Virus record (IMG/VR): IMGVR_UViG_3300042446_002147
Coordinates: 1 to 64,000 of that record
Origin: a virus
Reading direction: 5' to 3' (one strand)
DNA: 64,000 nucleotides
Under the pieces are notes generated by a model. It was given only the letters and a program-made list of their open reading frames with translations, did no database searches and had not been told where the DNA came from. Position numbers and translations under genes: made by a program. How positions within the stretch are numbered: the first letter of the stretch is position 1; every line of letters starts with the position of its first letter. Of this stretch, positions 2 through 51,139 are shown piece by piece.

Positions 2-715
2 AGTGGATCTTCAGGATCTTCAGGAACATCAGGATCTTCAGGAACATCAGGATCTAGTGGTTCTAGTGGAACATCAGGATCTAGTGGAACATCAGGATCT
101 TCAGGAACATCAGGATCTAGTGGATCTTCAGGATCTTCAGGAACATCAGGATCTAGTGGAACATCAGGATCTAGTGGTTCTAGTGGAACATCAGGAGCTT
201 CAGGAGCTTCAGGTTCAAGTGGATCTTCAGGATCTTCAGGAACATCTGGATCTAGTGGAACATCAGGAGCTTCAGGAGCTTCAGGTTCAAGTGGATCTTC
301 AGGATCTTCAGGAACATCTGGATCTAGTGGAACATCAGGAGCTTCAGGAGCTTCAGGATCTAGTGGATCTTCAGGATCTTCAGGAACATCTGGATCTAGT
401 GGAACATCAGGAGCTTCAGGAGCTTCAGGTTCAAGTGGATCTTCAGGATCTTCAGGAACATCAGGATCTAGTGGAACATCAGGAGCTTCAGGAGCTTCAG
501 GTTCAAGTGGATCTTCAGGATCTTCAGGAACATCAGGATCTAGTGGAACAAGTGGTAGCTCAGGAACATCAGGTTCAAGTGGTTCAAGTGGATCTTCAGG
601 AACAAGTGGTTCTAGTGGTTCTTCAGGTTCTAGTGGTAGATCAGGATCTTCAGGAACATCAGGATCTAGTGGAACATCAGGAATAGACGGAACTTCAGGA
701 ACTGATGGAAGATGG
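2..715 (+). repeat. Gly-Ser-Ser/Gly-Thr-Ser coding repeat, array 1
   Basis: This is a nearly uninterrupted array of 9-bp units that encode Gly-X-Y triplets. A few codon blocks (GGATCTTCA, GGAACATCA, GGATCTAGT, GGAGCTTCA) recur almost without synonymous variation. The DNA itself is therefore homogenised, as expected from slippage or unequal recombination. Higher-order blocks of roughly 70 bp can be seen repeating between about 180 and 540. Confidence 0.9.
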
Positions 716-1855
716 GGTAGTGATGGTTCAAATAGTGGAAGATGGTATAATGATGGAAGTTCTCCTGCACCTGCCAGTCCAAGTGGAGGAACCTTTGTTA
801 CGGATACACAAGTAATATCAACAATTTCATTGATTTCTATTAATATTTACGATATTAACACAACCGATTATTACGATTGGCTTAAAGCTTTATCAGATTT
901 AAGAACCGCAGGAAATAGAGGTTATCTACAAATAACAGAAGTAGGTAATAATAGTGTAATTGGAATCTATACTATTGGAAATAGAACAGATCATACTTCA
1001 TATTGGGATATAGGCCTTACTTTTGTCACTGGTTCAGGTAATTTAACTGATGGTGGTCTTCATACTGTTTCGTGGGTCTTTAATGGAACGAATGGATCTT
1101 CAGGAACATCAGGAGCTTCGGGAGCAAGCGGATCTTCAGGATCCTCAGGTTCTAGTGGAACAAGTGGTAGCTCAGGAACATCAGGATCTAGTGGAACATC
1201 AGGATCTTCAGGAACATCAGGATCTTCAGGATCTAGTGGTTCTTCAGGTTCTAGCGGTAGATCTGGTTCTTCTGGAACATCCGGATCTAGTGGAACATCA
1301 GGATCTTCAGGAACATCAGGATCACTTACAGTAACAGGGTCAACCGATAACGGTGTTATAACTCTCAATGGAGCATCTCCAAATGTTGCTGTTGAATCAA
1401 ATTTAACTTTTAATGCAACAGGTAATGTCTTTACAGTTAACGGTTCAATGGTTAATACACATAGCCCAGCTACCCAATTAAGTGCTACTGGTGGATATGG
1501 TGATATTGTAACATTTGGTTCTGGATCTTTAACTGCTGGAAAAGTTTATTACTTCGGTTCTACTGGAACATGGTTTGAAACAGATGCTGATGGAGCTTCA
1601 ACAGCTACAGGAATGTTAGGAGTTGCTTTAAGTACAACTGCTGCTGGTGGACTTTTAGTTAGAGGTTATGCTAAAAGTATCCAATACTATACGGGAGCAA
1701 CAGGAGCAATACTTTACTTATCCGGAACAGGAGGAGAAATCACTACAACTGCGCCAGCAGGAGCTTCAGATATTGTGAGAATAATTGGTTACCAAATAGA
1801 TGGAGCAAATGATATAATTTACTTTAATCCTTCAAATGATTGGGTGGAAATTTAA
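2..1855 (+). CDS. collagen-like tail fibre protein (5' partial)
   Basis: The reading frame is open from the left window edge and ends at the TAA at 1853-1855, so the N-terminus lies outside the window. About 235 residues of Gly-X-Y triplets, almost only G-S-S, G-T-S and G-A-S, are followed by a globular insert (about 715-1085), a second triplet stretch (about 1088-1327) and a C-terminal head of about 175 residues rich in G, T and aromatics. Long Gly-X-Y rods with a terminal knob are typical of phage fibres, where they form trimeric shafts. There is almost no proline, which is odd for a collagen helix, while Ser/Thr are extremely dense, giving many possible O-glycosylation sites. Three small virion-like proteins and a large glycosyltransferase follow. 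The fibre role is inferred from composition and context. Confidence 0.8.
   Translation, partial: SGSSGSSGTSGSSGTSGSSGSSGTSGSSGTSGSSGTSGSSGSSGSSGTSGSSGTSGSSGSSGTSGASGASGSSGSSGSSGTSGSSGTSGASGASGSSGSSGSSGTSGSSGTSGASGASGSSGSSGSSGTSGSSGTSGASGASGSSGSSGSSGTSGSSGTSGASGASGSSGSSGSSGTSGSSGTSGSSGTSGSSGSSGSSGTSGSSGSSGSSGRSGSSGTSGSSGTSGIDGTSGTDGRWGSDGSNSGRWYNDGSSPAPASPSGGTFVTDTQVISTISLISINIYDINTTDYYDWLKALSDLRTAGNRGYLQITEVGNNSVIGIYTIGNRTDHTSYWDIGLTFVTGSGNLTDGGLHTVSWVFNGTNGSSGTSGASGASGSSGSSGSSGTSGSSGTSGSSGTSGSSGTSGSSGSSGSSGSSGRSGSSGTSGSSGTSGSSGTSGSLTVTGSTDNGVITLNGASPNVAVESNLTFNATGNVFTVNGSMVNTHSPATQLSATGGYGDIVTFGSGSLTAGKVYYFGSTGTWFETDADGASTATGMLGVALSTTAAGGLLVRGYAKSIQYYTGATGAILYLSGTGGEITTTAPAGASDIVRIIGYQIDGANDIIYFNPSNDWVEI
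1088..1327 (+). repeat. Gly-Ser-Ser/Gly-Thr-Ser coding repeat, array 2
   Basis: This is a second array of the same 9-bp units in the same reading frame, separated from array 1 by a globular insert. It shares the codon blocks GGATCTTCA, GGAACATCA and GGATCTAGT with array 1, with a few more synonymous changes (for example GGTTCTTCT, GGAACATCC), so it may be slightly older or less recently exchanged. Confidence 0.9.
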
Positions 1856-1876
1856 TAAATAATAGATAAATAAATT

Positions 1877-2383
1877 ATGATTGCTAAAATAAGTGGAGTC
1901 ACATTCAATCCACCCAGAACTACTGGTCAAACAACAGCCTATGCATCTAGTACAGCTGAGAGAGTAGTGAATTCGGTTATTATTCCTGGAGGTTCTCTCC
2001 GAAATGATGATCATCTAGGAATAGATTCGAGAGTAATTAAATCAGGAGCGTTTGGAACTGTTACTGTGAGAATAAGAATAGGTACAGTCGCTAATACATC
2101 TCAAACATTAGTTGCAACTTATACTTCCAGTTCGGCTGCACATACTTATGTTCCAATAATGAGAAGATTATTATTATATAATGTAGCTAGTTCCACCTAT
2201 GTTTTTACAGCAGCTACATCAAATTCATGGGATTATGCAGGACCATCTATAGGATGGCAAAACTTAACAACTATAGATTGGGCATCAGATCAATATATCA
2301 TCATAACAACACAATGTGTAAGTGCTTCGGATACAATATATTGTCCTTATATAATAACAGATTTTCAAGCAGCAGTAAGATAA
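1877..2383 (+). CDS. small virion protein, fibre-associated paralogue A
   Basis: This 168-residue protein is of unknown family. It opens with KISGVTFNPP and is rich in Ser, Thr, Val and Ile in a pattern typical of beta-sandwich phage tail proteins, with no transmembrane segment or catalytic motif. It shares its opening (K/R-ISG) and general make-up with the next two genes, so the three look like tandem duplicates. It follows the fibre gene by 21 bp. A role as fibre tip, adhesin or decoration protein is inferred only from position and composition. Confidence 0.6.
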   Translation: MIAKISGVTFNPPRTTGQTTAYASSTAERVVNSVIIPGGSLRNDDHLGIDSRVIKSGAFGTVTVRIRIGTVANTSQTLVATYTSSSAAHTYVPIMRRLLLYNVASSTYVFTAATSNSWDYAGPSIGWQNLTTIDWASDQYIIITTQCVSASDTIYCPYIITDFQAAVR

Positions 2384-2384
2384 T

Positions 2385-2876
2385 ATGGCACAAACAAGAA
2401 AGAAAAATGGAATTGCGTTAAGAATTTCGGGTACGGGATTAAGATCAGCAGATCCTTGTTCAACTGAAAGTATTTTAGGGTCGGTGGCTATAGCCCCTGA
2501 TTATTTAGTATCTGGAGCTATTATTACTACAACTAATGGAATAATTAAATCGGGTGCTACCAATGCATTTACAATTAAATTGTACTGGAATACCACAGTA
2601 TCTCTTTCAGGAGCTTTGCAGATGGGAACATACTCAGTTGTCGCTGCTAATACATCACCTAATCTTTTTAGAAGATTTGTTTTTGATTCGGCGACTACTG
2701 CTAAAGGCATGGTTTCTACATTTTCAGCAACTAACGATGTTGGGGATATTGCCACCACTGTAGCATCATACACTTTTTCTTCTTGGTTAATAAATGGGGG
2801 ATATTTCTTTATAACAGGATTAAGGACTTCTGGAACTGAAACTCTACAATTAGTAAAAATGACAATAGAAGTATGA
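2385..2876 (+). CDS. small virion protein, fibre-associated paralogue B
   Basis: This 163-residue protein starts one base after the preceding stop codon (TAATATG). Its opening, RISGTGLRSADP, resembles paralogue A and paralogue C. It is beta-rich with repeated Thr/Ser/Ala stretches, and lacks a signal peptide or known enzyme motif. Its stop codon overlaps the next start as ATGA, so translation of the two is probably coupled. A tail or fibre accessory role is likely but unproven. Confidence 0.6.
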   Translation: MAQTRKKNGIALRISGTGLRSADPCSTESILGSVAIAPDYLVSGAIITTTNGIIKSGATNAFTIKLYWNTTVSLSGALQMGTYSVVAANTSPNLFRRFVFDSATTAKGMVSTFSATNDVGDIATTVASYTFSSWLINGGYFFITGLRTSGTETLQLVKMTIEV

Positions 2877-3388
2877 ATTCAAAAATATCAGGTAGGGCTT
2901 TAAATCCTTTCTATAACACCACGGTAAAAACAATTACTGGATCCACTGCATTAACAATATTACAAAAAGTTTTTGTTCCTGCAGGAACTTATGAAGCAGG
3001 AGATCTTATAATCGTAAATATGTTAATGGGTAAAATAGGATCTGCTAGCAGTTTCACTCACTGGCTATATGCCAGTCCAAACGATCCGGATGTTTCTGGT
3101 ATTACTGGAGCGATTCAACTTTGGGTTAGAGGAACTGGTGCGGCACAATTATATATAGATCACGGAAGACACCTTTACATAAAAAATACAACCGGTGGTG
3201 GAAGTGGAATAGAATTAGGAACTGAAGTTTTAGCAGTAGGAACTGCGGTATTTTCTGAAATGAGAAGTGGGACTACGTCTAACGTTGCTATAAATTGGTC
3301 AAATGGAGTATATTTGTTTATGGCAGGACAATTAGCAAGTTCTTCTGATAGAATAGATCAATACTACTTAAAAATATGGGATTATTAA
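2873..3388 (+). CDS. small virion protein, fibre-associated paralogue C
   Basis: This 171-residue protein overlaps the previous gene by 4 bp (ATGA). It starts MNSKISGRALNPF, sharing the KISG...NP opening with paralogue A. The body is beta-rich, with a glycine-rich loop (TTGGGSGIEL). It is the third member of the tandem family behind the fibre. Tandem variants of this kind can act as alternative or hetero-oligomeric receptor-binding heads, but that is speculation here. Confidence 0.6.
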   Translation: MNSKISGRALNPFYNTTVKTITGSTALTILQKVFVPAGTYEAGDLIIVNMLMGKIGSASSFTHWLYASPNDPDVSGITGAIQLWVRGTGAAQLYIDHGRHLYIKNTTGGGSGIELGTEVLAVGTAVFSEMRSGTTSNVAINWSNGVYLFMAGQLASSSDRIDQYYLKIWDY

Positions 3389-3389
3389 A

Positions 3390-3617
3390 ATGATTTTACA
3401 AGTAACAAAAATTGAAAACGGACTTAATTGGAGTGGAGAAGATAGACACTTCACAAATAACCTCCTTGAATCAGGGTTAAGTTATTCGTTAACTGATCCA
3501 ATAAATATGTCTATTGAATTAGATAATCAAATCTATGGTATGTGTGTTGAAACTGCTAGTCTAGACGGTATAATGTATTCAACATCCCAAGAATTTGCTA
3601 AAGCTATTTTTGGATAG
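3390..3617 (+). CDS. hypothetical small protein
   Basis: This 75-residue protein starts one base after the preceding stop (TAAAATG). It is the last gene of the fibre cluster. It is acidic, has no membrane segment and matches no family I recognise. Tight packing with the paralogue family suggests co-translation and perhaps a chaperone or accessory role for the fibre, but nothing in the sequence proves that. Confidence 0.5.
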   Translation: MILQVTKIENGLNWSGEDRHFTNNLLESGLSYSLTDPINMSIELDNQIYGMCVETASLDGIMYSTSQEFAKAIFG

Positions 3618-3661
3618 ATGATATCTAAGTATTAAAAATTAGGGAAACATCTTTCATATTT

Positions 3662-3686
3662 TTCGTATAATATAAAAAAATACGAA
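3662..3686 (+). promoter_or_regulatory. inverted repeat at the start of the large glycosyltransferase gene
   Basis: TTCGTAT (3662-3668) and ATACGAA (3680-3686) form a perfect 7-bp inverted repeat with an 11-bp A/T spacer. The right arm ends on the first base of the ATG at 3686. It could be an operator, or an RNA hairpin that hides the start codon. The spacer TAATATAAAAAA also looks like a promoter -10 region. Confidence 0.35.
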
Positions 3687-6600
3687 TGATAAAAGTTAGA
3701 GCTCATACATGCTATTTAGGAACAACTGGGTATTCTGCCCATGCTAGGGAATTCTTTAGGGGACTTTCCAAATATGTTGATTTAAGAGTGAGAAACTACA
3801 CCTGGGACAGTGACCCTATGTATTTAAATGATATCGATTTTAAAATCATAGATAAGATAACATTAAGGACGCCAGAGGGAAAAGATGAAGATTTTCCAAT
3901 TACTCACTCATTTCCGCAATTTCATTGGGCTAATTCAAATAGGGATTTCACACCAGATGTGGACATAGTTCTAATGGACATGAATCACAATTACTTTAAT
4001 GAAGAGTACAATAGTAAGATTAAGATAGCATACACTGTATGGGAAAGCACAGAAATACCTGAAGGATTTTTCAATCAACTTTTAAAATTTGATTACTTAT
4101 GGGTTGCAACTGAGTGGCATAAAGAAGTGGTTGTTAATCAAGGGTATCCTAAGCAAAAAGTTTTTGTAGTTAATGAGGGTGTTAGTAATGAATTTTTTGG
4201 AGACGTTGATATCCCGAATAACGTAAATGAAGAATATAAAGACGGAAGATTTAAGTTTTTATTTTTTGGTAGATGGGATTACAGAAAATCCGTACCAGAA
4301 ATAATCAATTCATTCTTAAAAGCATTTCCTAATAATGAACCAGTAGATCTTATTTTAAGTGCAGACAATCCTTATGCTGTCGATGGCATGAACACCACAG
4401 AGCAAAGGCTATTGCATTATGGATATAATGATCCAAGAATAAAAGTTAAACATTTTGTAAGTAGGGAAGAATACGTAGCATATTTAAAAAAAGGAAACGT
4501 TCTAATTACTTGTGCTAGAAGCGAAGGGTGGAATATACCGCTGATTGAAGCAATGGCTGCGGGTACACCTGTAATATATTCAGACTGGGGAGCTCAGTTA
4601 GAATTTGCATATGCTAAAGGAAATCCAGTTAAGATTAAAGAGGAACTTCCTGCAAATATAGGTGCAAAATTAGGATTTGCGGGAGACACTCCTGGACTTT
4701 ATGCTGAGCCAGATTATGATGATTTAATTTCCGTTTTAAGGGATTGTTATGTTAATTATAAGCAAAGAAAAGAATGTGCTGTATTAGAGAAGAATTATAT
4801 CATTAATAATTTTAATTGGGAGAATATTGGTAAAAAAGGATATGACACGTTATTAAGTGTTTCAGATTTTGAAATACCAAAGGTGTCAAAAAAAGAAGCA
4901 GTAGTTATATCATCTCATGCAGATACCAAAGAAAAAATATCAATTTTAAAAAGATCTGTATTAGCTCTAAAAAAACAAGGGTATTTTGTGATAGTGTCTT
5001 CTCATATTTCTATTCCTGATGAGATATTAAAAATATCAGATTACTTTATATGTGAGACAGATAATCCTGTGGTTATGTATGATGAGTTTAACAAATTGTC
5101 TAATTCAGTTCCCGTTTACTATTTAAAATACGATGATTTTGAGCTCAGTTATCCTTTAGAATTTAATCACGGCTATGCTGCTCTTAGATTGATTTTAAAT
5201 GGTGCTAGACTCTCTAAAAACTGTGGATTCAATAAAACACATTTCGTTAACTACGATTACATTATAGACGACGAAAACACACTTATACGCCATTCCGAGT
5301 TATTAGAAGAAAACTCTATAGTTACATATAGATGGAATCCTGAAAATTCAATTAGCTCCTCTTCAATCAGCTCAGCATTTTTCTCTGGTATAAACGACGA
5401 TATATTAAAATCTATAGAATCAACACAATCAAAGAGCGATTATTTTAGATATGATGGGGTAACTATATTAGAAGACTTTATCTATAAAGTATTTACTGAG
5501 AATGATTTAAAAATGTGGATAGGAGACATAGAAGATGTTTCTAAGAAGAATGTAATTAATTCTGTAATAATACCAGCATATCCCATAATAAAAACAAAAA
5601 ATGGTAAAATTAGCTACGTGTATTTAGGTCACGAATCTGCAGAAGGAAAAAATTATCTATGCGCAATAGGTAACGATGAGATATTAGAAGGTAAAATAAT
5701 TAAAGGGGGAAAGACATTTGATTTCTCAGCAGGATCTTATCCTATGAATTTTTATCTAATCACAGATGAAGAATTAGAAAACGGAGTAACTGTAGTTATT
5801 CCTAAATATGATCAGGTTTTTAATTACAACACAAAAACTAAAAAAGCATCAATATTAATAAATAATAAGTCATTGATATTAAATCTAGAGGAGAATAAGA
5901 ATAAGCCTAGATTTAATATAAATTTCTTTGAAGGTCCTTTTGTAGAAATAAAAGATGCAGAAGGTAAAGAATTCACGGTGGATTTTATAGATAATGATAA
6001 AGGAACTACACATTATACTACTAATTTAAAAAATAATACCTGGGCAAGATGTTCTATACAATATTATAAAAATTGGTTAATTAGAATAAAAGATAAATCC
6101 ACAGGAGATATCCACGAAGAAAGACTGGATCTAAAAGGTAAAAATGTTCTAATATCAATTGAATCTTCCTCTTTAGGAGATTCTCTTTCGTGGTTCCCTC
6201 ATATTGAAGAATTCAGAAAAATACACGGATGTAATATTTTTTTAAGCACTTTTAAAAACGAACTATTCATAAAAAACTATCCAGAAATAACATTTATAAA
6301 TCCAGGTCAAGTCGTTAACAATCTTAATTCAATTTATAGAATAGGTTGGTTCTATGATGGAGACAGTTTTAATAAGGATAAAAATCCTAGAGATTTTAAA
6401 AATATCCCTATGCAGGCAACTACAACGGACATTCTAGGATTACCCCACACTAATTTAAGAGCAAATATAGTTATAAAAGATTCTTCTAGACCAATGGAAG
6501 AAGATTATGTTTGTATAGGTTATCATTCTACAGCTCAAACTAAATATTGGAATAATCCTACAGGATGGCAAGAACTAGTCAATTGGCTAATTTCAAAAGG

Positions 6601-7027
6601 TAAAAAAGTTGTAATGATTAGTCATGAAGTAGATGGGTATATGGGTAATAAAAATCCGGAAGGGGTCATTTATATTGAGGGTGAAAAAACATTAGATAAT
6701 GCAATAAGATACATTAAAAATTCAGAAATGTTTATTGGTATAGGATCAGGATTAAGTTGGCTTTCATGGTCTTTAGAAGTTCCAACCGTATTAATATCAG
6801 GATTCAGTACACCAAAAACAGAATTTTTAGGTCCTGACGTGATTCGCATATTTAACTCTAATGTTTGTAATGGATGTTTTAATAGAGAAAGATTAGATGC
6901 AGGTGATTGGAATTGGTGTCCAGATCATAAAGGAACTGACAGACAATTTGAATGTACTAAAACAATTACTAGTAAAGATGTAATAGAAAAAATAGAAAAT
7001 TACTGGGAGGGTAACAAATCAGAATAG
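3686..7027 (+). CDS. multi-domain glycosyltransferase: GT4 + middle domain + BAHT/TibC-like O-heptosyltransferase
   Basis: Residues 1-400 form a GT4-type GT-B enzyme, with GRWDYRKSVPEII and the donor-site motif EGWNIPLIEAMAAGTPVI. Residues 400-700 are a less clear GT-like region. Residues 740-1113 match the bacterial autotransporter heptosyltransferase family: a small beta domain (FFEGPFVEI) is followed by a GT9-like fold (SLGDSLSWFPHIEEF; GIGSGLSWLSW; SGFSTPKTEF). Four cysteines (Cys1061, Cys1064, Cys1078, Cys1090) match the spacing idea of the iron-binding finger of TibC. Family members transfer heptose from ADP-heptose to serine of beta-helix adhesins. Lying next to a Ser/Thr-rich fibre, the protein may glycosylate virion protein. 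Substrate and donor are unknown. A terminator hairpin follows at 7113. Confidence 0.8.
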   Translation: MIKVRAHTCYLGTTGYSAHAREFFRGLSKYVDLRVRNYTWDSDPMYLNDIDFKIIDKITLRTPEGKDEDFPITHSFPQFHWANSNRDFTPDVDIVLMDMNHNYFNEEYNSKIKIAYTVWESTEIPEGFFNQLLKFDYLWVATEWHKEVVVNQGYPKQKVFVVNEGVSNEFFGDVDIPNNVNEEYKDGRFKFLFFGRWDYRKSVPEIINSFLKAFPNNEPVDLILSADNPYAVDGMNTTEQRLLHYGYNDPRIKVKHFVSREEYVAYLKKGNVLITCARSEGWNIPLIEAMAAGTPVIYSDWGAQLEFAYAKGNPVKIKEELPANIGAKLGFAGDTPGLYAEPDYDDLISVLRDCYVNYKQRKECAVLEKNYIINNFNWENIGKKGYDTLLSVSDFEIPKVSKKEAVVISSHADTKEKISILKRSVLALKKQGYFVIVSSHISIPDEILKISDYFICETDNPVVMYDEFNKLSNSVPVYYLKYDDFELSYPLEFNHGYAALRLILNGARLSKNCGFNKTHFVNYDYIIDDENTLIRHSELLEENSIVTYRWNPENSISSSSISSAFFSGINDDILKSIESTQSKSDYFRYDGVTILEDFIYKVFTENDLKMWIGDIEDVSKKNVINSVIIPAYPIIKTKNGKISYVYLGHESAEGKNYLCAIGNDEILEGKIIKGGKTFDFSAGSYPMNFYLITDEELENGVTVVIPKYDQVFNYNTKTKKASILINNKSLILNLEENKNKPRFNINFFEGPFVEIKDAEGKEFTVDFIDNDKGTTHYTTNLKNNTWARCSIQYYKNWLIRIKDKSTGDIHEERLDLKGKNVLISIESSSLGDSLSWFPHIEEFRKIHGCNIFLSTFKNELFIKNYPEITFINPGQVVNNLNSIYRIGWFYDGDSFNKDKNPRDFKNIPMQATTTDILGLPHTNLRANIVIKDSSRPMEEDYVCIGYHSTAQTKYWNNPTGWQELVNWLISKGKKVVMISHEVDGYMGNKNPEGVIYIEGEKTLDNAIRYIKNSEMFIGIGSGLSWLSWSLEVPTVLISGFSTPKTEFLGPDVIRIFNSNVCNGCFNRERLDAGDWNWCPDHKGTDRQFECTKTITSKDVIEKIENYWEGNKSE

Positions 7028-7104
7028 TAATGTGTAGTACTATTATTATGTTATTTGAAACATAAATATAAAAAATTAATATACTTAAGTTAGTCACCTT
7101 TCGT

Positions 7105-7112
7105 GATATATA
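7105..7112 (+). promoter_or_regulatory. GATATATA late-promoter-like motif abutting a terminator
   Basis: The octamer GATATATA lies directly against the hairpin that starts at 7113. Elsewhere in the window the same octamer sits 7-21 bp before start codons. Here the next start is 182 bp away, so if it works as a promoter the transcript would meet the terminator at once. Confidence 0.25.
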
Positions 7113-7135
7113 AAAGGAGCACTAGCTCTTTTTTT
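7113..7135 (+). terminator. intrinsic terminator after the glycosyltransferase
   Basis: AAAGGAGC, loop ACTA and GCTCTTTT form an 8-bp stem with one G-T pair, running into a tract of seven T. It lies 86 bp after the stop of the large glycosyltransferase and probably ends the fibre/glycosyltransferase transcript. Confidence 0.65.
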
Positions 7136-7294
7136 AGAATTGCGCATAAAAATAATAAATTGGCCATAAACTAGTTACAGATATGAAATATACACGGGTT
7201 AAAATTAAAAAGCCTGTATACTAAATATATAAAATATCTTGTAATATAATTTTGGAACACTTTAGAATAAAAATACTAAAACAATAAAGGACAA

Positions 7295-7837
7295 ATGATA
7301 ATATCTGAAAAAAATAAAATCCTAATCACACGGGTTATAGATACAATAAATTGGCCATTGATTCATAAGTTTTATAAAATAGTAGGTAGGACTATAGGAA
7401 CCGAAACGATTCAGATTTCTGGAATAAAAAAACTAGATAAAAAAATCAAGCTAAATGAGGATCATATAAAGGATGAGGTGCTTCATATAATAAATCATGT
7501 GGTAGAAAATGATATTTCTCAATATATGTATGGACCATGGAATGTTATATGGGTTAACGGAGAATGGGAAATGGAAATTCCAGAAACTGACGATAAAGGA
7601 AATGAGATTCTTGATGGAGATAGCGCATTCGTTCCTATTTTAGAATCTATGCTAGAGGTTTATTTTTCTCCAATGACTGTGATATCAAGAGAAATCGTTG
7701 TAGACGAGGATGATTTAGAAGATAAAACAGACACAATAGATCTAAATAAACAATTAGAAAAAGCTCTAAGCGATGAAAACTATGAACTAGCTTCAAAGAT
7801 TAGGGATCTAATTGATATCTATAAGAAACAAAAATGA
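7295..7837 (+). CDS. hypothetical phage protein with C-terminal UVR-like helical hairpin
   Basis: This 180-residue acidic protein has an N-terminal half that matches nothing I know. The last 35 residues (LNKQLEKALSDENYELASKI) resemble the UVR helical hairpin of UvrB/UvrC and Clp adaptors, a protein-protein contact module. It starts after a weak AAAGGA 6-7 bp before the ATG, one of the few possible Shine-Dalgarno sites in the window. It overlaps the next gene by 4 bp (ATGA). The function is unknown, and the UVR resemblance is short and could be chance. Confidence 0.6.
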   Translation: MIISEKNKILITRVIDTINWPLIHKFYKIVGRTIGTETIQISGIKKLDKKIKLNEDHIKDEVLHIINHVVENDISQYMYGPWNVIWVNGEWEMEIPETDDKGNEILDGDSAFVPILESMLEVYFSPMTVISREIVVDEDDLEDKTDTIDLNKQLEKALSDENYELASKIRDLIDIYKKQK

Positions 7838-8706
7838 AAAGAAGAATTAAATTAATAGACGAACAATTTGCACAAAGTATAAATGGTGACGGATTTAATA
7901 GCTCCAATGGGGTTTTTAAAGTGAATTATAAAGCTTATACAGATTTATCTTTAGCAGTAGGAAGAGACCCAGATCCTAGCTTATTAGTTAAAGATTCAGT
8001 TTTTCAAGTGGGAGATGTAGTTAAGGGAAAAATCAAAGGTGGTAATAAAAATGCAACAGGAGAGGTGATTGAGACTAAAAAGGCAACAGATGGTAAATCA
8101 TATGTTATAAAAATACAAGCATTAAAAGACAAAAAAAATTACACACTAACACCAGGATCAATAGAATTTGTAAAAGATAACGGTAACACACAAAATACTG
8201 TGGGAATGTCAATAAGTTCAAAAGAAAAAAATGCACAGAACTTAAAATATAATGGAGGTAATATTATATGGGGTTCTATGGAAAATAAAATCATTGATCC
8301 ACTATATACAGATTTAGAAGATGAACCTGTTACAGGGCCAATGAACACTGGATGGAAAATAAAATTTGTAGAAGATCTGCCAAAAGATAATCTTATATTT
8401 AATTCAATATTAGCCGATCCAGGAGAGTCTTTGATGACTTTCTCTAGATCTGGCATAAATGATGCGTTTAATGACATCTTAAAAGCAGCAGAGGCATTCT
8501 GTTACTTCATTCATCATCCAGATCTTAATGAATATCCAATAGATCTAAAATCTATTCTTGGGGTTCTATTTTTAGAACTAAAAAATGAAAATGATGCAAA
8601 GAAACAATTCATTCAGCATTTTCCAGATTTAACAAAAAGATCATACGGAGAATCTAGAGACGAACATCACGACAAAGCAAAATCAATTATTAATAGCTTC
8701 TTATAA
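7834..8706 (+). CDS. hypothetical protein, possible head-associated protein
   Basis: This 290-residue protein is coupled to the previous gene by ATGA. Its start MKRRIKLIDE/Q fits the short targeting pattern [LIV]xE seen on head-region proteins, with a candidate cut after Glu10. Residues about 55-110 look like a small beta barrel (VGDVVKGKIKGGNKNATGEV, then YTLTPGSIEFV), reminiscent of SH3/KOW-like folds. The C-terminal third is helical and acidic. No enzyme motif is seen. It ends directly before the next ATG. Confidence 0.5.
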   Translation: MKRRIKLIDEQFAQSINGDGFNSSNGVFKVNYKAYTDLSLAVGRDPDPSLLVKDSVFQVGDVVKGKIKGGNKNATGEVIETKKATDGKSYVIKIQALKDKKNYTLTPGSIEFVKDNGNTQNTVGMSISSKEKNAQNLKYNGGNIIWGSMENKIIDPLYTDLEDEPVTGPMNTGWKIKFVEDLPKDNLIFNSILADPGESLMTFSRSGINDAFNDILKAAEAFCYFIHHPDLNEYPIDLKSILGVLFLELKNENDAKKQFIQHFPDLTKRSYGESRDEHHDKAKSIINSFL

Positions 8707-9501
8707 ATGACTATCGAAAGAAAAAGAAATCTTTTAAGAATAAGCAGAGAGAAAACAAAAAATCCAGGGATTCCTAATTTTTCTAATGTAAATTCACAGG
8801 TTTTACAGGAACCTCTTAAATCTAATCCCGTGGAAAAAAATATTATCTCAGTAAGCAGAATAAAGACTGAAGTAAAAAGCTCATATCTTGGTAAAAATCT
8901 AAATCCTGATTATATCGGGAAATTTTCAGGCGAGACATTTATTGTTGCAGGATGCGGATCTTCATTAAATTATTACACAGATTTTAGTAAGTATTATGTA
9001 ATAGGTGTTAATGATATAGAAAGAATACTTACTCCAGATTTTTTAGTGGTTGTAAACGAAGTCAGAACTTTTATGATAGGAAGATGGAATTATGTAAGAG
9101 ATTCTTTAAGTCCTGTAATTTTTTCGCATTTAGATAATCCCGGTCCAATAACAAGACAAGCTCATCTTGCAAAAATAAATATTGGCGAAAGAAGCAATCC
9201 AAATCTTGATAGAATGGATCGTGTTGATTACACTATGAATTCTCCATATATGGCTATTGTGATAGCATATCAATTAGGGGCTAAAAAAATAGGAATGGTC
9301 GGTGTAGATTTCACACAAGATCATTTCTTTTCTAATACAGGAACACACAAACTTACTAAACACACAAAAAATATAGATCAGGAATATTTGGTGCTAAGAA
9401 ATGAATTAGAAAAAAGAGGGGTAAAAGTTGCAAATCTTTCACCAATAAGTTTATTAGAGTCCTGGCCAAAAATGGATCTAGCAGGATTTGATTCCCTTTA
9501 G
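8707..9501 (+). CDS. Maf/DUF115-like (MptE-type) protein, putative glycosyltransferase
   Basis: After about 75 polar residues the protein shows a Rossmann-type core with AGCGSSLNYYTDFSKYYVIG, DFLVVVNE and GAKKIGMVGVDFTQDHFF. This set is typical of the DUF115/MptE-like superfamily, which includes Maf flagellin glycosyltransferases and is structurally close to GT42/GT29 sialyltransferases. It starts immediately after the preceding stop. Related proteins occur in the glycan island at 40818 and 42704, so it is probably part of the same glycosylation programme although it lies 21 kb away. The exact reaction is not known. Confidence 0.6.
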   Translation: MTIERKRNLLRISREKTKNPGIPNFSNVNSQVLQEPLKSNPVEKNIISVSRIKTEVKSSYLGKNLNPDYIGKFSGETFIVAGCGSSLNYYTDFSKYYVIGVNDIERILTPDFLVVVNEVRTFMIGRWNYVRDSLSPVIFSHLDNPGPITRQAHLAKINIGERSNPNLDRMDRVDYTMNSPYMAIVIAYQLGAKKIGMVGVDFTQDHFFSNTGTHKLTKHTKNIDQEYLVLRNELEKRGVKVANLSPISLLESWPKMDLAGFDSL

Positions 9502-9532
9502 AAACTTATTTCATTTTTTTTGTAAAATTAAT

Positions 9533-10288
9533 ATGGAATCAATCAAAAATGGAATAGTGATTAGAATGCCGGATTCTTCAATCATTAAAGAAAACTCTCT
9601 TGGTAAAATAATCTGTGATAGGATTAAAAGCTATATCCCTATGGGTTATAAACTTTTTATAGTGGAGCTTTCAGAAAAAGATATTGAAAATTCAACAGAG
9701 GTAACAGAAGCACAAAAGGAAAGATTCCTTTATTATTTAGAAGACCTAGATGTTAGATTAGCATTTTACATAAAAAGTAAAAATCACGTGGTTTCTACAG
9801 ATATAGAATCTAAAAAGAAAGCTAAAAAAGAAATATTAAAAATTGGGCAATTCGTTGATGAAATTGATGCTGGAAGATTTGATGTGCCCCTAATATGTCA
9901 TATAGGTGGAGCAAACGGGAATAGAAGAAAAAGTATGATGGAATTTTGTAAATTCTTCGATACCCTTCCTTGGAGAATACAGAAGCAATTATGTTTAATA
10001 AATGATGATAAGCCAAGTCTTTTTTCAGTAAAGGATCTTCTGTCAGTTAGCTATGTAGAGAAAAAGATTCCTATTGTTTTTAGAACTAGTTCACATAGAA
10101 CGAATCAAGGTGGTCTAACATATAAAGAAAGTTTTTTCTTGGCTGCTTCAACTTGGGCGGAAAGATCAAACCCTATAATGTTCTATTGTCCATCCACACA
10201 AGAAGAAACAATAACAGTTCAGGACCTAAATCCTTATAATTTAATTGTTGATGTGGCTTTTGATAATAATATACCAGAACCTATTTAG
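9533..10288 (+). CDS. UvdE-like TIM-barrel protein, probably altered active site
   Basis: HIGGANGNRRKSM, the strand LCLINDDKPSLFSVKDLL and then IPIVFRTSSHR follow the order and spacing of UV-damage endonuclease (UvdE): HxGG, LENDD, FDxHHH. However, the usual Glu of LENDD is Ile, and the HHH cluster is reduced to SSHR, so several metal ligands are missing. It may have lost repair activity or changed substrate. I chose the ATG at 9533 because it begins the conserved part and leaves a clean AATTAAT leader; an upstream in-frame ATG at 9488 would overlap the previous gene by 14 bp. The length of 251 residues is a little short for UvdE. Confidence 0.6.
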   Translation: MESIKNGIVIRMPDSSIIKENSLGKIICDRIKSYIPMGYKLFIVELSEKDIENSTEVTEAQKERFLYYLEDLDVRLAFYIKSKNHVVSTDIESKKKAKKEILKIGQFVDEIDAGRFDVPLICHIGGANGNRRKSMMEFCKFFDTLPWRIQKQLCLINDDKPSLFSVKDLLSVSYVEKKIPIVFRTSSHRTNQGGLTYKESFFLAASTWAERSNPIMFYCPSTQEETITVQDLNPYNLIVDVAFDNNIPEPI

Positions 10289-16687: not shown

Positions 16688-18406
16688 ATGGAACTCTTAA
16701 ATCAAAGTGAGATCTACGAAACGTGGTCTCCAATCATAGAGAGCAAGACCGGTATGACAGATCGTACAAAGGTAGAGTGGTTATCTAAATATTGCCACTT
16801 TCACTCATTAAACGAATCTGCCGGAGCTTATAACACTCTAGGTGCAATGAACGGTATGGGCGCAATCGCTCCTCCAACAAACTACACAGGTGGTGCCGCT
16901 GGTAACGGTCCTGGTGGATTTTACTATAATAATACTTACAACGCTGGTCGTCCATACGTTGGTTCTGGTGATAAATTCCCATCATTACTTCCATTGGCTA
17001 TTCAGGTAGCTGCTAAAACCGTAGGTTTTGACATCGTGCCTGTTATCCCAATGAGTGGTCCTACAGGAGTATTATCTTACTTAGACTACGTATACGCAGG
17101 TGGTACTTTAACTGGATCTTCAACTGATTCTTCAACTAATAACGTTGCTAACACACCAGACGTTATTAAAGTGCCAACAGCAGTAGCTTCTCCAGCAACA
17201 ACTTTAGCTGTAGGTACAGTTTATTACCTTTGGGTTCAAGCTGACGCATCTAAATATGCTACTACTAAATTTGTTGGTTACTCTCGTATCGATGGTTTCC
17301 CAATTTTTAGAGTAACAGCATTAACATCTGGCGATTCAATTGCTGCTGTTGTTACTGCTAATTCAGTTATTTCTACTGCACAAGGTTCAGGTATAGTTGG
17401 TTATTCTAGTAGCTCAGCAACACTTGTTAAAACTTTAGAAGATCATATCCAAGGTTTCTCAGGAACTGGAGATGCTACTGATCCTTTCCAAGGACCTTAT
17501 GTAGATGGTACTACTAACTACGATCCAATGTCAAGAGCACAAGGTGAATCTACTTACTACAAGTCTTTAGGTTTATCTACTTTCACTAAGTTCGTTGAAG
17601 CTGGTACTTTCCAAGTTGCTGCTTCTGTTACTACTGAGCAAATTCAAGATCTTAACAAACAATTCGGTATCGACGTAGTTTCTATGATCGAGAACGCATT
17701 GGTTAATGAGGTTTCTCAAGCTATTAACAAGCACATCTTATCAAGAGGATTTGCTCTTGGATGGTCTAACCACTCTCAATTCTTCTTAACAGAGAATACA
17801 AACCTTAACTTAAACTTAGTTATTGGTGGTCCTGCTACTTATACAGTTCCTAGTTACATCGGTAAAAACGGTCAATCTTTAGGTGCTTCTGCACCAGGTC
17901 CAGTAGCTGGTCCAGCTTCAGGTACTTTTGAGAACTTATCAACAGTTCAAAGAAGACTTTACAGCCGTATCTTAGCAGCTGCTAACGTGGTAGCTAATAG
18001 AGGTCGTAGAGGTCCTGGTAACTTTATCGTTACAAACTCTCAAATTGCGTCTGCATTACAAGACATCAGTCAGTTCACATTCGCTCCATTTACTAACACC
18101 CTTACTCAAAACAACGGTACATTATACCCTGTAGGTTCACTTGCTGGTATGACTGTATATGTTGATCAGAACATGTCATTCGGTGACACTAGAGTATTAG
18201 TTGGTAGAAAAGGTGCTGATGATGAGCCAGGTATGAAATTCATGCCTTACATGATGGCAGAATCAATCCAAACAATCTCTGAAGGTACTATGTCTCCTAA
18301 GATCGCGGTTAAATCTCGTTACTCTTTAGTTGAGGCTGGTCACCACCCAGAAACAATGTATTTCTGCTTCCACATTAATGTTGGAACTGCTACTGCTATT
18401 ATCTAA
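16688..18406 (+). CDS. major capsid protein (gp23-like)
   Basis: This 572-residue protein contains PLAIQVAAKTVGFDIVPVIP followed by MSGPTGVLSYLDYVYAGG, a hallmark of T4-like major capsid proteins. It follows the protease-scaffold gene by 8 bp, as in T4-like head operons. HSLNE/SAG at Glu43 is a plausible maturation cleavage site, with earlier IxE sites at Glu11 and Glu18. Codon use differs from the neighbours: there are many GGT, GCT, AAC, TTC and CGT codons, consistent with very high expression. A strong terminator follows at 18431. Confidence 0.92.
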   Translation: MELLNQSEIYETWSPIIESKTGMTDRTKVEWLSKYCHFHSLNESAGAYNTLGAMNGMGAIAPPTNYTGGAAGNGPGGFYYNNTYNAGRPYVGSGDKFPSLLPLAIQVAAKTVGFDIVPVIPMSGPTGVLSYLDYVYAGGTLTGSSTDSSTNNVANTPDVIKVPTAVASPATTLAVGTVYYLWVQADASKYATTKFVGYSRIDGFPIFRVTALTSGDSIAAVVTANSVISTAQGSGIVGYSSSSATLVKTLEDHIQGFSGTGDATDPFQGPYVDGTTNYDPMSRAQGESTYYKSLGLSTFTKFVEAGTFQVAASVTTEQIQDLNKQFGIDVVSMIENALVNEVSQAINKHILSRGFALGWSNHSQFFLTENTNLNLNLVIGGPATYTVPSYIGKNGQSLGASAPGPVAGPASGTFENLSTVQRRLYSRILAAANVVANRGRRGPGNFIVTNSQIASALQDISQFTFAPFTNTLTQNNGTLYPVGSLAGMTVYVDQNMSFGDTRVLVGRKGADDEPGMKFMPYMMAESIQTISEGTMSPKIAVKSRYSLVEAGHHPETMYFCFHINVGTATAII

Positions 18407-18430
18407 TCGATATAACAGTATAATACTAGA

Positions 18431-18458
18431 AAAGGTCTCTCTCGGGAGACCTTTTTCT
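18431..18458 (+). terminator. strong intrinsic terminator after the capsid gene
   Basis: AAAGGTCTC and GAGACCTTT form a perfect 9-bp stem around a 6-nt loop, followed by TTTTCTTT. It lies 25 bp after the capsid stop and is followed by a GATATATA motif for the next gene, separating the two transcription units. Confidence 0.85.
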
Positions 18459-18478
18459 TTGTTTCAAGGTTTAGTTGG

Positions 18479-18486
18479 GATATATA
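18479..18486 (+). promoter_or_regulatory. GATATATA late-promoter-like motif
   Basis: GATATATA followed by C lies 16 bp before the ATG at 18503 and 20 bp after the capsid terminator, which is the expected place for a new promoter. Confidence 0.55.
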
Positions 18487-18502
18487 CAATAAAAGCAAAA
18501 AT

Positions 18503-19465
18503 ATGTTATTCGAAAACGTAAATCAGTTTCAATCAGCTAAAAAAACATTATTAGAAAACGATAGAAACGTTCAACACACTGTAGAGATTCTTAAAAATTC
18601 TCAATTATTTTCTACACTTTCAGAGGGGGAAATAATTCTAGCAGTAACAGAATTAAACGAAGGTCTTGGTGATAGAATCATGAATTTCCTTAGCGGTGCT
18701 TTTGGTGGTGATGTAAACACTATAAAAACTGTTCTAACGCAAATGAAAGAACAAGAACTTAAATACAATCAAGAAGAATTTGAAATATATAATGAATTCT
18801 ACTCTCTTTTACAAGATCAAAAAGCTTTAGATAGAGATAAAACAAATCCTAGTTATCAAGAATTTAGTAATGATATTGCACAGTCAAGAAATGGACTAAA
18901 TCAAAGAATGAAGGAACTAAACAAAGCTCACGGCGACATTTTTGATGCTTTAGAGACAAAAGTTAAGGATCTAGTTAAAGATAGTAATAGAAAGAAAAAA
19001 TACTTCAATGCACAAAGAGCAACAGATGTATTAGAGACTAAAAATGACAGATACGATAAGATTAAAGCAGTAACAGCTAAGAGCTCTAGAAGATCTCAAG
19101 AATTAGAAGATTTCTTTGGCGTTAATGCAGAGCAAGCAAAACAAAACGTAGCTCAGGCACAGACTAAAGCAAATCAAGCTGTTAATGCACTTTCAAAAGT
19201 TGCACCAGTTGCACCAGGATCTACGCCATCAAGAGACGTATTTGTTAATGACCCAGAGAAAGGATTTTATGAAGATTTTGAACAAATATCAGGGAGTGCA
19301 GGTAAACCTGAGGATAAATTAAAAGAACTTAGACTATTAGAAAAGGCAATATTTACACATATAATGAAGGGAAATCATTCAGCAGAAACGATTGAGAATC
19401 TTAAAGACGTACACAAACAAGTTTCTGATATGATTCAATCATTAGGATCTAATGTTAATCCATAA
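18503..19465 (+). CDS. hypothetical helical head-region protein
   Basis: This 320-residue protein is almost wholly helical and charged, with coiled-coil stretches (about residues 80-240). Two sites fit the prohead protease rule: LLE/N at Glu18 and ELNE/GLG at Glu53. The segment after Glu53 (GLGDRIMNFLSGAFGGD) is a short hydrophobic glycine-containing helix, as in the next gene. It is the first gene after the capsid terminator. An internal core or head-accessory role is inferred from position and processing sites, with no recognised family. Confidence 0.6.
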   Translation: MLFENVNQFQSAKKTLLENDRNVQHTVEILKNSQLFSTLSEGEIILAVTELNEGLGDRIMNFLSGAFGGDVNTIKTVLTQMKEQELKYNQEEFEIYNEFYSLLQDQKALDRDKTNPSYQEFSNDIAQSRNGLNQRMKELNKAHGDIFDALETKVKDLVKDSNRKKKYFNAQRATDVLETKNDRYDKIKAVTAKSSRRSQELEDFFGVNAEQAKQNVAQAQTKANQAVNALSKVAPVAPGSTPSRDVFVNDPEKGFYEDFEQISGSAGKPEDKLKELRLLEKAIFTHIMKGNHSAETIENLKDVHKQVSDMIQSLGSNVNP

Positions 19466-19466
19466 T

Positions 19467-20339
19467 ATGAAATCAATTAAAAAATTAAACGAGTTTGGTT
19501 CTTTAAATGAAGGGATATTTTCTTCATTCTTTAAAGGCTTCGGTGGTACTCAAGGAAGAAGGGGTAAGCTTGAATCTTTACTAAAAGATATAAGAAAAGC
19601 TAGGGAAGAAGATGTTGATAGCGCTATTTCAATAGAAAAAGAAATCTGGAATATGCCTAAGGAGAATACTCCTGAATATAGATTCGCAATAACAAATCTT
19701 AATAGACAAGCTAGGACTTATGCTTCTTTAAAAGGCCAGGAGATTAATTCTTTAATTAAGAATGCTAACAATCTCATAGAAGATAATCCTAAATTACAAG
19801 CATTTTTTAGTGCAGAGCTTGCTAAGATAGAAAAGGAAACCACAGAAAAACTTATAAAGAATATAAAGCCTTATAAAGAAAAAACATATCTGGATCAATT
19901 AAGTGCTGAGTTTGATAGACTTGTACAGGATTCAAATAAAAAATCATCAGTATACGGAGAATTTGGAGAGGGCGACGATAGAGTACCTAAAATAACTGTA
20001 CCTGAAAAGGTTAGTAATGATGTTTTAACATTCCTAGATATGTCTCCACAAGAAGCTGCTTTGCATTGTAAAAATTTAAACGATAAAGATATTGGTAATT
20101 ATTACACACAAATAAAGTCTTTCTTTTATGATTTACAGTATAAGTATACTAGTGCAATAGATTCAGTAAGAGATTCAATTAAGAAAGCTCAGAAAGAAGG
20201 CCAAGATTGGATGATTCCTTCTTTTGATAAAGAAGAAATTAATATTAGATATTATATGAAAAAACCTATGGACAGGTTAAGAAATAGAATATCTACAATA
20301 GAAAAAGAAATGAAAAGTAGAAAGCATGGCTCTTATTAA
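19467..20339 (+). CDS. hypothetical helical head-region protein with double LNE site
   Basis: This 290-residue protein starts MKSIKKLNEFGSLNE/GIF. Two LNE motifs (Glu9, Glu15) followed by small or hydrophobic residues match the inferred protease consensus. GIFSSFFKGFGG after the second site resembles the same region of the preceding gene, suggesting the two are distant paralogues. The rest is a charged helical protein. I preferred the ATG at 19467 (TAATATG context, just after the preceding stop) over an in-frame ATG at 19452 that overlaps it. Confidence 0.6.
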   Translation: MKSIKKLNEFGSLNEGIFSSFFKGFGGTQGRRGKLESLLKDIRKAREEDVDSAISIEKEIWNMPKENTPEYRFAITNLNRQARTYASLKGQEINSLIKNANNLIEDNPKLQAFFSAELAKIEKETTEKLIKNIKPYKEKTYLDQLSAEFDRLVQDSNKKSSVYGEFGEGDDRVPKITVPEKVSNDVLTFLDMSPQEAALHCKNLNDKDIGNYYTQIKSFFYDLQYKYTSAIDSVRDSIKKAQKEGQDWMIPSFDKEEINIRYYMKKPMDRLRNRISTIEKEMKSRKHGSY

Positions 20340-26703: not shown

Positions 26704-27360
26704 TTAATTAAAGAAATTATCGAATCTTATAACCTTCTCCGAAGTATCATCCTCTTCCTCTTCTAAATCCGATTCGTCCTCTTCTTCAGTGTCATCTTCG
26801 TCATCTTCTTCAGTGTCATCTTCGTCATCTTCTTCTTCGTCTTCTGCTTCGATATCGTCCTCGTCAGATTCTTCTTCGTCTTCTACTTCAATTTCGTCCT
26901 CGTCAGATTCTTCTTCGTCTTCGTCGGATTCTTCCTCGTCTTCGTCAGATTCTTCTTCGTCCTCTTCATATTCTTCTTCGTCCTCTTCAGATTCTTCTTC
27001 GTCAGATTCTTCTTCGTCAGATTCTTCTTCGTCTTCGTCAGATTCTTCTTCGTCTTCGTCAGATTCTTCTTCGTCAGATTCTTCTTCTTCGTCCGATTCT
27101 TCTTCTTCGTCAGATTCTTCTTCGTCAGATTCTTCTTCGTCCTCGTCAGATTCTTCTTCTTCGTCAGATTCTTCTTCGTCAGATTCTTCAGTATCTAGAT
27201 CGTCTAGGTCCTCGTCTTCTTCGTCAGATTCTTCTTCGTCCTCATCAGTTTCTTCTTCCTCCTCTTCTTCTATTTCAGAATCTTGCCAAAAATCATTTTT
27301 TGGCATTTCAGAAGGTTTTCTTGAGTTAAACTCTTCGAATGATAATATTTTTTTATCCAT
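26704..27360 (-). CDS. highly acidic Glu/Asp/Ser repeat protein
   Basis: This 218-residue protein begins MDKKILSFEEFNSRKPSEM. About 160 residues made almost only of Glu, Asp and Ser in units such as ESDEEESDEDEE follow, ending in VIRFDNFFN. The encoding DNA is a GAA/GAC/TCG-type repeat. It is extremely negative and presumably disordered. T4-like heads contain acidic core proteins (gp67, gp68), and the gene lies among head-type genes, so a core or DNA-mimic role is possible. It is directly upstream of the glutamate-ligase-like gene on the same strand. Confidence 0.7.
   Translation of the reverse strand: MDKKILSFEEFNSRKPSEMPKNDFWQDSEIEEEEEEETDEDEEESDEEDEDLDDLDTEESDEEESDEEEESDEDEEESDEEESDEEEESDEEEESDEEESDEDEEESDEDEEESDEEESDEEESEEDEEEYEEDEEESDEDEEESDEDEEESDEDEIEVEDEEESDEDDIEAEDEEEDDEDDTEEDDEDDTEEEDESDLEEEEDDTSEKVIRFDNFFN
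26750..27260 (-). repeat. acidic-codon repeat tract
   Basis: This is a low-complexity tract of GAA, GAC, GAG, GAT and TC(T/G) codons on the minus strand, with recurring blocks of 12-18 bp. Length changes by slippage are likely between relatives. Confidence 0.85.
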
Positions 27361-40209: not shown

Positions 40210-40818
40210 ATGATACTAAATCTTGAAAACATAGAAAGTAAATTTAATAATTTACTAGAATCTCCAAAATATAAAGAATTTATTAAGCAGATAAAAGAAG
40301 CAAAGAACATATACCTTGTTGGTAATGGAGGTCTTTGGTCAACAGCAAACCATGCTGCAGATGATTGCAATAGATTACTTACTAAAGCAGGAATTAATAA
40401 GATGTTTATTTCTATGGACAGTCAATGTCTAATTACATCTGTAGCAAATGATTATGGGTACAACAATATATTTGTTAGATGGCTAGAACTTTTGAAAAAA
40501 AATAACGCTAAATCATCAGAGACTATGGTTATAGGTTTATCCTGTTCTGGTACATCAAAAAATGTCATATCAGCTTTGCATTGGGGTAAAGAGAATGGAT
40601 ATAAGACATGTTTAATTTCTGGTCAAAAATCTGCAGTTATACCCGAAGATATGTTAGAGGTTTGTTTTGATACGGAATTTTTTCACACAACAGAAGTTTT
40701 ATCTCTTATATTATTTTACCAAATAATTATTGAATGTGGAGCTTCTTGTCCAACAATAAAAGAAGAAATTATAAGAAAAGGTTCTTCGCAACCTTTAACT
40801 AGACCTACAGACGAATAA
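40210..40818 (+). CDS. SIS-domain phosphoheptose isomerase-like (GmhA-like)
   Basis: This 202-residue SIS protein reads IYLVGNGGLWSTANHAADDC, ITSVANDYGYNNIFVRWLEL and VIGLSCSGTSKNVISALHWG. This is the order and spacing of GmhA (GNGGSA...H; ND.G; SGxS). GmhA turns sedoheptulose 7-phosphate into heptose 7-phosphate, the first step to ADP- or GDP-heptose. This fits the BAHT-like heptosyltransferase module at 3686. It overlaps the next gene by 1 bp. The later heptose enzymes were not found as a set. Confidence 0.75.
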   Translation: MILNLENIESKFNNLLESPKYKEFIKQIKEAKNIYLVGNGGLWSTANHAADDCNRLLTKAGINKMFISMDSQCLITSVANDYGYNNIFVRWLELLKKNNAKSSETMVIGLSCSGTSKNVISALHWGKENGYKTCLISGQKSAVIPEDMLEVCFDTEFFHTTEVLSLILFYQIIIECGASCPTIKEEIIRKGSSQPLTRPTDE

Positions 40819-50680: not shown

Positions 50681-51139
50681 ATGAATAAAACGATAGGAAT
50701 TACTTGCTCTACTTTTGATCTTTTACATACTGGACATATAATTATGCTAGAGGAGTGTAAAAAATACTGCGATTATTTAATATGCGCAATACAAGTTGAT
50801 CCCTCATTAGATAGAATTGGAAAAAATAAACCAGTGCAGTCTTTAGTTGAAAGGTACATACAATTAGATGCTGTTAAGCATGTTGATAAGATTATACCAT
50901 ACACTAATGAGAAAGAGCTTGAATTAATATTTATGTCATTAGATTTAGACGTTAGAATTATAGGTGAAGAATATAAGGATATAGATTTTACAGGTAAGAA
51001 TATTTGTATAAAAAGAAATATTAAATTAATATACAATAAAAGGGAGCATAATTTTTCTACAACTAATTTAAGAAAATCAATATACTTAAATGAATTAAAT
51101 AAAGAATTAGAAAAAAATAATAAGCCGGATGGAAATTAA
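50681..51139 (+). CDS. TagD/HldE-type cytidylyl- or nucleotidyltransferase
   Basis: This 152-residue protein begins ITCSTFDLLHTGHIIMLEEC, with the HxGH motif, then CDYLICAIQVDPS, and ends with REHNFSTTNLRKSI, the (I/F)STT..R/K motif. It resembles glycerol-3-phosphate cytidylyltransferase TagD and the C-terminal domain of HldE. It would attach CMP or AMP to a sugar or polyol phosphate. It sits between kdsD and kdsA, which may mean it works on a heptose or glycerol phosphate used in the same glycan. Confidence 0.78.
   Translation: MNKTIGITCSTFDLLHTGHIIMLEECKKYCDYLICAIQVDPSLDRIGKNKPVQSLVERYIQLDAVKHVDKIIPYTNEKELELIFMSLDLDVRIIGEEYKDIDFTGKNICIKRNIKLIYNKREHNFSTTNLRKSIYLNELNKELEKNNKPDGN

Follow-up and report, generated by a model that had tools for sequence, protein, structure and literature searches.

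A TibC-like glycosyltransferase encoded beside a proline-free Gly-X-Y fibre in a phage genome: a candidate system for fibre self-glycosylation

By the rules known for collagen, proline-free Gly-Ser/Thr-Ser repeats should give only weak triple helices. Such repeats form a putative fibre at the very start of the linear virus record IMGVR_UViG_3300042446_002147 (123,769 bases), of which we analyzed bases 1-64,000 (here called the window), and a large multidomain glycosyltransferase (GT) is encoded shortly downstream. The locus therefore raises the question of whether the enzyme glycosylates the fibre of its own virus, as had been proposed from the DNA letters without database searches (the original prediction). 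The relevant open reading frames (ORFs) and their parts are as follows.

2-1855, + strand: fibre ORF, the proposed acceptor (Pfam Collagen match, count of Gly-X-Y triplets)
5-733, + strand: Pro-free Gly-X-Y run of 81 triplets within the fibre ORF
1085-1327, + strand: Pro-free Gly-X-Y run of 27 triplets within the fibre ORF
3686-7027, + strand: multidomain glycosyltransferase of 1113 amino acids (aa) (profile and PDB sequence matches)
3686-4837, + strand: GT4 (GT-B) domain, residues 1-384 (Pfam PF00534, 2.6e-11; phrog_2170)
4883-5842, + strand: middle domain, residues 400-719 (alignment with other fusions, modest model)
5921-6997, + strand: TibC/Aah-type heptosyltransferase domain, residues 746-1104 (TIGR04414, TibC alignment, fold)
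6866-6955, + strand: iron-finger motif, Cys 1061/1064/1078/1090 (alignment with TibC Cys 339/342/358/370)

The fibre ORF is open at its 5′ end, since the window starts at base 1 of the record. It contains 108 Gly-X-Y triplets in two perfect runs (81 + 27) from which Pro is absent, as the original prediction of Gly-Ser-Ser/Gly-Thr-Ser triplets almost devoid of proline had implied. The X position is occupied by Ser (59), Thr (33), Ala (12), Arg (3) and Ile (1), i.e. by Ser, Thr or Ala in 104 of the 108 triplets, and the Y position by Ser (101), Asp (3), Asn (2), Trp (1) and Leu (1). The ORF matches Pfam Collagen (PF01391) with an E value of 1e-45, and its two Gly-X-Y runs are long and uninterrupted. 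A Pro-containing Gly-Pro-Thr-Gly-Glu-Thr repeat ORF runs off the right end of the record (122356-123768; 18356-19768 in locus L088); whether it belongs to the fibre gene truncated at base 1 is a matter of conjecture.

The enzyme ORF starts 1.83 kb beyond the end of the fibre ORF, in agreement with the distance of about 1.8 kb given originally. Residues 746-1104 match the curated NCBIfam model TIGR04414 (hepto_Aah_TibC, autotransporter O-heptosyltransferase) with 307 bits (cutoff 200; E value 1.5e-91, far beyond chance), and the C-terminal domain matches the sequence of TibC in the PDB with an E value of 5e-62. An AlphaFold2 model of residues 700-1113, built from an alignment of 40 sequences, had a mean predicted local distance difference test (pLDDT) score of 90.9; its top Foldseek matches were all TibC chains (4rap, 4rb4; for 4rap, E value 1e-38, template modelling scores 0.82/0.88, root-mean-square deviation 2.3), with WaaF and WaaC trailing far behind. 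The model thus has the TibC fold, a beta-barrel together with a GT-B-like catalytic part. The TibC residues D110, K230 and W305 (catalytic/donor residues) and Cys 339/342/358/370 (iron finger; PMC4358343) correspond in the alignment to D832, K953, W1025 and Cys 1061/1064/1078/1090 of the phage enzyme, the Cys positions being exactly those predicted, and all seven columns are invariant across the 40 aligned sequences. Sequence, curated model and predicted fold thus all favour the kinship with TibC/Aah suggested originally, and a model lacking the GT9-like core or the Cys4 finger, which would speak against it, was not obtained. Three features had been overlooked: the N-terminal GT4 domain, the middle domain and a glycan-biosynthesis island of approximately 23 kb (see below). 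The middle domain is common to fusions in four further loci (L002, L109, L110 and L126); in the modest model of the full-length enzyme (pLDDT 71, predicted template modelling score 0.40) it consists of alternating strands and helices, and it is possibly another glycosyltransferase. The 1113-aa protein is best explained as a modular enzyme, encoded by a virus and related to the O-heptosyltransferases TibC and Aah.

What is the acceptor of this enzyme? We sampled IMG/VR contigs by DNA pattern only, blind to the enzyme: 50 with Gly-[ST]-[ST] x7 and 50 with Gly-Pro-X x6 (the latter DNA pattern is palindromic, and its matches were verified by translation). TIGR04414 was detected in 23/50 Gly-[ST]-[ST] contigs (22 above the cutoff) versus 0/50 Gly-Pro-X contigs (Fisher p = 9e-9) and, among contigs of at least 50 kb, in 17/25 versus 0/17. 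In those repeat contigs that carry TibC and measure 50 kb or more, Gly-[ST]-[ST] repeats were present in 13 of the 17 TibC-centred windows and in 5 of the 29 control windows (p = 1e-4). Pro-free Gly-Ser/Thr-Ser repeats were common in phage contigs among the matches listed. Pfam Collagen matches over whole contigs were dropped as evidence, as they do not separate Pro-free from Pro-rich repeats. The fraction of Ser in the Y position was the same in repeat contigs with (0.80) and without TibC (0.82; p = 0.10), which indicates that Y-position Ser alone is no marker of heptosylated fibres.

The same pairing was observed in cells. A scan of genomes revealed 19 cellular-labelled loci with a TibC relative. 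Five of these (L089, L092, L101, L106 and L107), binned as Rickettsiaceae, Bacteroidetes, Deltaproteobacteria, Thermoplasmatales and Nitrosotalea metagenome-assembled genomes, look phage-like by gene content. Small secreted or lipoprotein-like (GTS)n or (GSS)n ORFs adjoin the TibC relative on the chromosomes of Methylobacter, Methylomicrobium, Polaromonas and other Gammaproteobacteria. When a strict (G[ST][ST])5 pattern was scanned genome-wide in 14 cellular genomes (coordinates converted by hand), ten of them had every match no farther than about 5 kb from the TibC relative, frequently in the gene next to it, and an eleventh had 13 of its 14 matches there; of the remaining three, two had strict matches elsewhere and a looser repeat next door, and one had no strict matches. 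The probability of this pairing arising by chance is about 1e-8, counting three independent lineages only. A quick tree, computed with one outgroup and with some rows missing because of strand orientation, shows phage and cellular TibC domains interleaved rather than in separate clades, and we therefore do not claim a single phage origin.

In viruses the enzyme is widespread: at least 208 IMG/VR stretches encode relatives of it, and a phage protein in UniProt already bears the name Aah/TibC, so that the earlier statement that no phage example of the BAHT (bacterial autotransporter heptosyltransferase) family was known is wrong at the database level. INPHARED (50,697 phage records) holds relatives in only four records, namely Mel-JY01 and three uncultured huge phages, two of which resemble one same genome. 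Our searches of open-licence papers found none describing phage homologues of the BAHT family, heptosylated collagen-like proteins, Mel-JY01, or a TibC-type enzyme paired with Pro-free Gly-X-Y repeats in phages or bacteria.

Two layouts were distinguished: (i) fusions of about 700-1300 aa, some with extra methyltransferase-like parts, and (ii) a stand-alone TibC ORF of 385 aa preceded by a separate GT4 ORF. A Gly-X-Y ORF lies within 10 kb in 16/19 distinct fusion loci. With the GT4 half alone as the IMG/VR query, all 17 readable loci (many of them near-copies) also carried TibC, and 16 had an upstream Gly-X-Y fibre; GT4 relatives were for this reason unusable as a control for Gly-X-Y proximity, and the pattern-sampled contigs were used instead. 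The occurrence of GT4 and TibC both split and fused suggests that the two act jointly. Mel-JY01 (PP395634.1; L390), a cultured phage whose host is Microcystis elabens, carries a GSS/GTS ORF (2-3049), a structural gene (3065-4591) and a TibC fusion (4750-8430) in the same order as in our window. Its fibre was missed in the deposited annotation because an annotated coding sequence on the opposite strand (739-2298) overlies the ORF. The same record has a prolyl 4-hydroxylase annotated at 146571-147170.

Taken together, the best explanation of the locus, to which we assign a probability of roughly three in four, is that the fibre undergoes O-heptosylation by its own virus, with the fused GT modules extending the sugar. 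In the infected cell, the C-terminal domain would transfer heptose from ADP-heptose to Ser (perhaps also Thr) residues of the upstream Pro-free Gly-X-Y fibre, and the fused GT4 domain, possibly together with the middle domain, would extend or decorate this first sugar. The outcome would be a self-glycosylated tail fibre, which the modification may stiffen or shield. The fibre as acceptor is strongly supported by the comparative evidence from phages and cells; that transfer takes place, that the sugar is heptose, that Ser in the Y position is the site, and that stiffening or shielding may result, we infer. The recurrence of the pair in viruses and on bacterial chromosomes suggests that the fibre is coated with sugar by its own virus, and in this respect the original prediction has gained ground, although the support is comparative and not chemical. 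By analogy with the cuticle collagen of Riftia (see below), the sugar could plausibly replace Pro in holding the triple helix, a glycosylated mucin-like rod being the alternative for these repeats. The wider idea of a collagen route shared by phages and bacteria, in which O-heptosylated Gly-[Ser/Thr]-Ser replaces (hydroxy)proline and which involves TibC-type enzymes that are dedicated and interchangeable, additional sugar modules and, in some phages, heptose-donor genes of their own, is tentative, and we would not wager on it at even odds.

The identity of the donor was approached through neighbouring genes. Of 61 distinct IMG/VR loci, 18 have an ORF resembling HldE-C (the adenylyltransferase half) that abuts, or nearly abuts, the TibC ORF, and 13 have an ORF resembling the HldE kinase half after it, which points to heptose as the donor; as their scores lie below the NCBIfam equivalog cutoffs, the identity of these ORFs is likely but not proven. 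Viruses are reported to possess functional heptose nucleotide enzymes (Tang et al. 2024, as cited in PMC11461863). In the window itself, the candidate donor genes lie in the island:

30238-53254, no strand assigned: glycan-biosynthesis island, approximately 23 kb (family matches)
40210-40818, + strand: GmhA-like (sedoheptulose-7-phosphate isomerase) ORF (64 bits, under the curated cutoff)
50681-51139, + strand: HldE-C/RfaE2-like nucleotidyltransferase (70 bits, under the curated cutoff)

The island encodes many GT families, Gmd, Fcl-like, KdsD-like and KdsA-like proteins, a nucleotide-sugar dehydrogenase, aminotransferases, a PseF/KdsB-like cytidylyltransferase and an AroB-related TIGR04425 enzyme, and is a possible source of further sugars.

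Several observations weigh against self-heptosylation of the fibre. (i) TibC R286, which contacts adenine, is opposite A1006, and the thumb residues F265/V266 are opposite Y985/M986, the alignment being uncertain at both places. (ii) The GmhA-like and HldE-C-like ORFs of this contig score under their cutoffs, and a heptose-7-phosphate kinase sought in the contig was not found. (iii) The known acceptors of TibC/Aah are beta-helix autotransporters, not Gly-X-Y repeats. (iv) No TIGR04414 match was obtained in 27 of the 50 Pro-free-repeat contigs, eight of which are at least 50 kb long; with about half of the repeat contigs lacking it, such repeats may exist without the enzyme, and a need for it is not established. 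(v) T4-like portals were found in 13 of 38 contigs tested in the Gly-[ST]-[ST] set versus 2 of 32 in the Gly-Pro-X set, so that phage lineage partly confounds the contrast, which nevertheless persists after removal of the portal-bearing contigs (12/25 versus 0/30, p = 1e-5). (vi) Only 2 of the 42 distinct stand-alone TibC loci have a Gly-X-Y ORF within 10 kb.

A block to superinfection has been proposed as the function of lipopolysaccharide (LPS) gene clusters in T4-like cyanophages. The enzyme might similarly remodel the host surface (LPS or exopolysaccharide) against superinfection, its site beside the fibre being incidental. The island, with its LPS-type content (Gmd, Fcl-like, KdsD-like, KdsA-like and numerous GT genes), and the distant relationship of the TibC domain to WaaC/WaaF would fit such a role. 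However, TibC/Aah enzymes act on Ser residues of proteins, its occurrence follows that of Pro-free Gly-X-Y repeats both in phages and in cells that have no phage island, and the gene of the phage enzyme adjoins the fibre, 23 kb away from the start of the island; we consider this explanation unlikely.

The scarcity of Gly-X-Y ORFs near stand-alone TibC genes would fit an enzyme that heptosylates another virion protein, such as a small tip protein, a tail protein of giant size or, in the case of related phages, a mucin-like poly-Thr protein. In the window, three small ORFs separate the fibre from the enzyme:

1877-2383, + strand: ORF of 168 aa, perhaps a fibre-tip or tail protein (weak PHROG tail match, E value 0.0056)
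2385-2876, + strand: ORF of 163 aa, no family match in profile searches
2873-3388, + strand: ORF of 171 aa, no family match in profile searches

A few stand-alone loci have poly-Thr ORFs upstream and others giant structural genes, and in six longer contigs of this clade Pro-free GTS/GSS-type repeats were located farther off in four (in one as a single short run) and absent from two. The poly-Thr ORFs (long T runs with AAP/EAP) were seen in three loci (L024 3730-5052, L033 4224-5591 and L054 211-900) and are possible alternative acceptors, so that another acceptor is possible in the stand-alone clade. Yet the contrast between Pro-free and Pro-rich repeats (23/50 versus 0/50), together with the cellular pairing, singles out Gly-[ST]-[ST], and for the phage studied here we judge a different virion acceptor to be quite improbable. 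In L033, the poly-Thr ORF is separated from the GT4-TibC genes by an ORF of 665 aa (5609-7606) whose C-terminal part is radical SAM/SPASM-like.

Glycosylation of phage DNA bases against restriction, in the manner of the T4 glucosyltransferases, is brought to mind by the T4-like head genes of this phage, since glycosyltransferases do modify DNA in some T4-like phages, but it was rejected on family grounds as highly improbable: in its curated family, its fold and its iron finger the enzyme goes with protein heptosyltransferases, and its relatives in cells are found alongside repeat proteins that are secreted.

Elsewhere in the window we observed a UvdE-like TIM-barrel ORF (9488-10288; Pfam 3e-11) and an ORF of 218 aa extremely rich in Asp, Glu and Ser (26704-27360, - strand).

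If self-heptosylation of the fibre is correct, a matched protein glycosyltransferase would explain the stiffness or protection of Pro-free repeats, the TibC/Aah family would gain a second class of acceptors beyond E. coli-type adhesins, and tail-fibre self-glycosylation would join the virion glycosylation known from mycobacteriophages. The proposal is directly testable, as the same pair occurs in the cultured phage Mel-JY01 and in small two-gene loci of Methylomicrobium and other bacteria.

Among known systems, the closest is TibC/Aah itself (TIGR04414; eLife 2014 e03714, PMC4358343; PDB 4rap), of whose BAHT family a dodecameric ring is a trait. The phage enzyme shares with it the C-terminal fold, the catalytic D/K/W residues and the Cys4 iron finger, and both genes lie beside one for a repetitive surface protein rich in Ser; it differs in being virus-encoded and fused to GT4 and further modules, and apparently in the residues at R286 and the thumb. 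What accompanies the enzyme from genome to genome is a Gly-[ST]-[ST] repeat rather than a strand-loop-strand autotransporter, and the enzyme is thus best regarded as a TIGR04414 family member with a different partner, not as a canonical autotransporter system. Mimivirus L230, a collagen lysyl hydroxylase/glucosyltransferase, acts on collagen-like proteins of the virus itself (reviewed in PMC9614988), but is an unrelated enzyme of a eukaryotic virus that forms a hydroxylysine-Glc linkage. Mycobacteriophages such as Che8 have virion proteins bearing glycans attributed to phage GTs (Freeman et al. 2023, as quoted in PMC11256854); other GTs and acceptors (capsid reported) are involved, with no link to Gly-X-Y or heptose. 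The cuticle collagen of Riftia carries glycosylated Thr at positions that stabilize the triple helix (Mann 1996, as summarized in PMC11766948), and resembles the proposed phage system in having sugar on hydroxy residues of Gly-X-Y in place of 4-hydroxyproline, although it is an animal protein modified by different enzymes and on Thr rather than mainly Ser. Virion self-glycosylation (mycobacteriophages) and glycosylation of collagen by a virus enzyme (Mimivirus) are therefore already known; what is new is the association of a TibC-type enzyme with Pro-free Gly-[Ser/Thr]-[Ser/Thr] repeats in both phages and cells.

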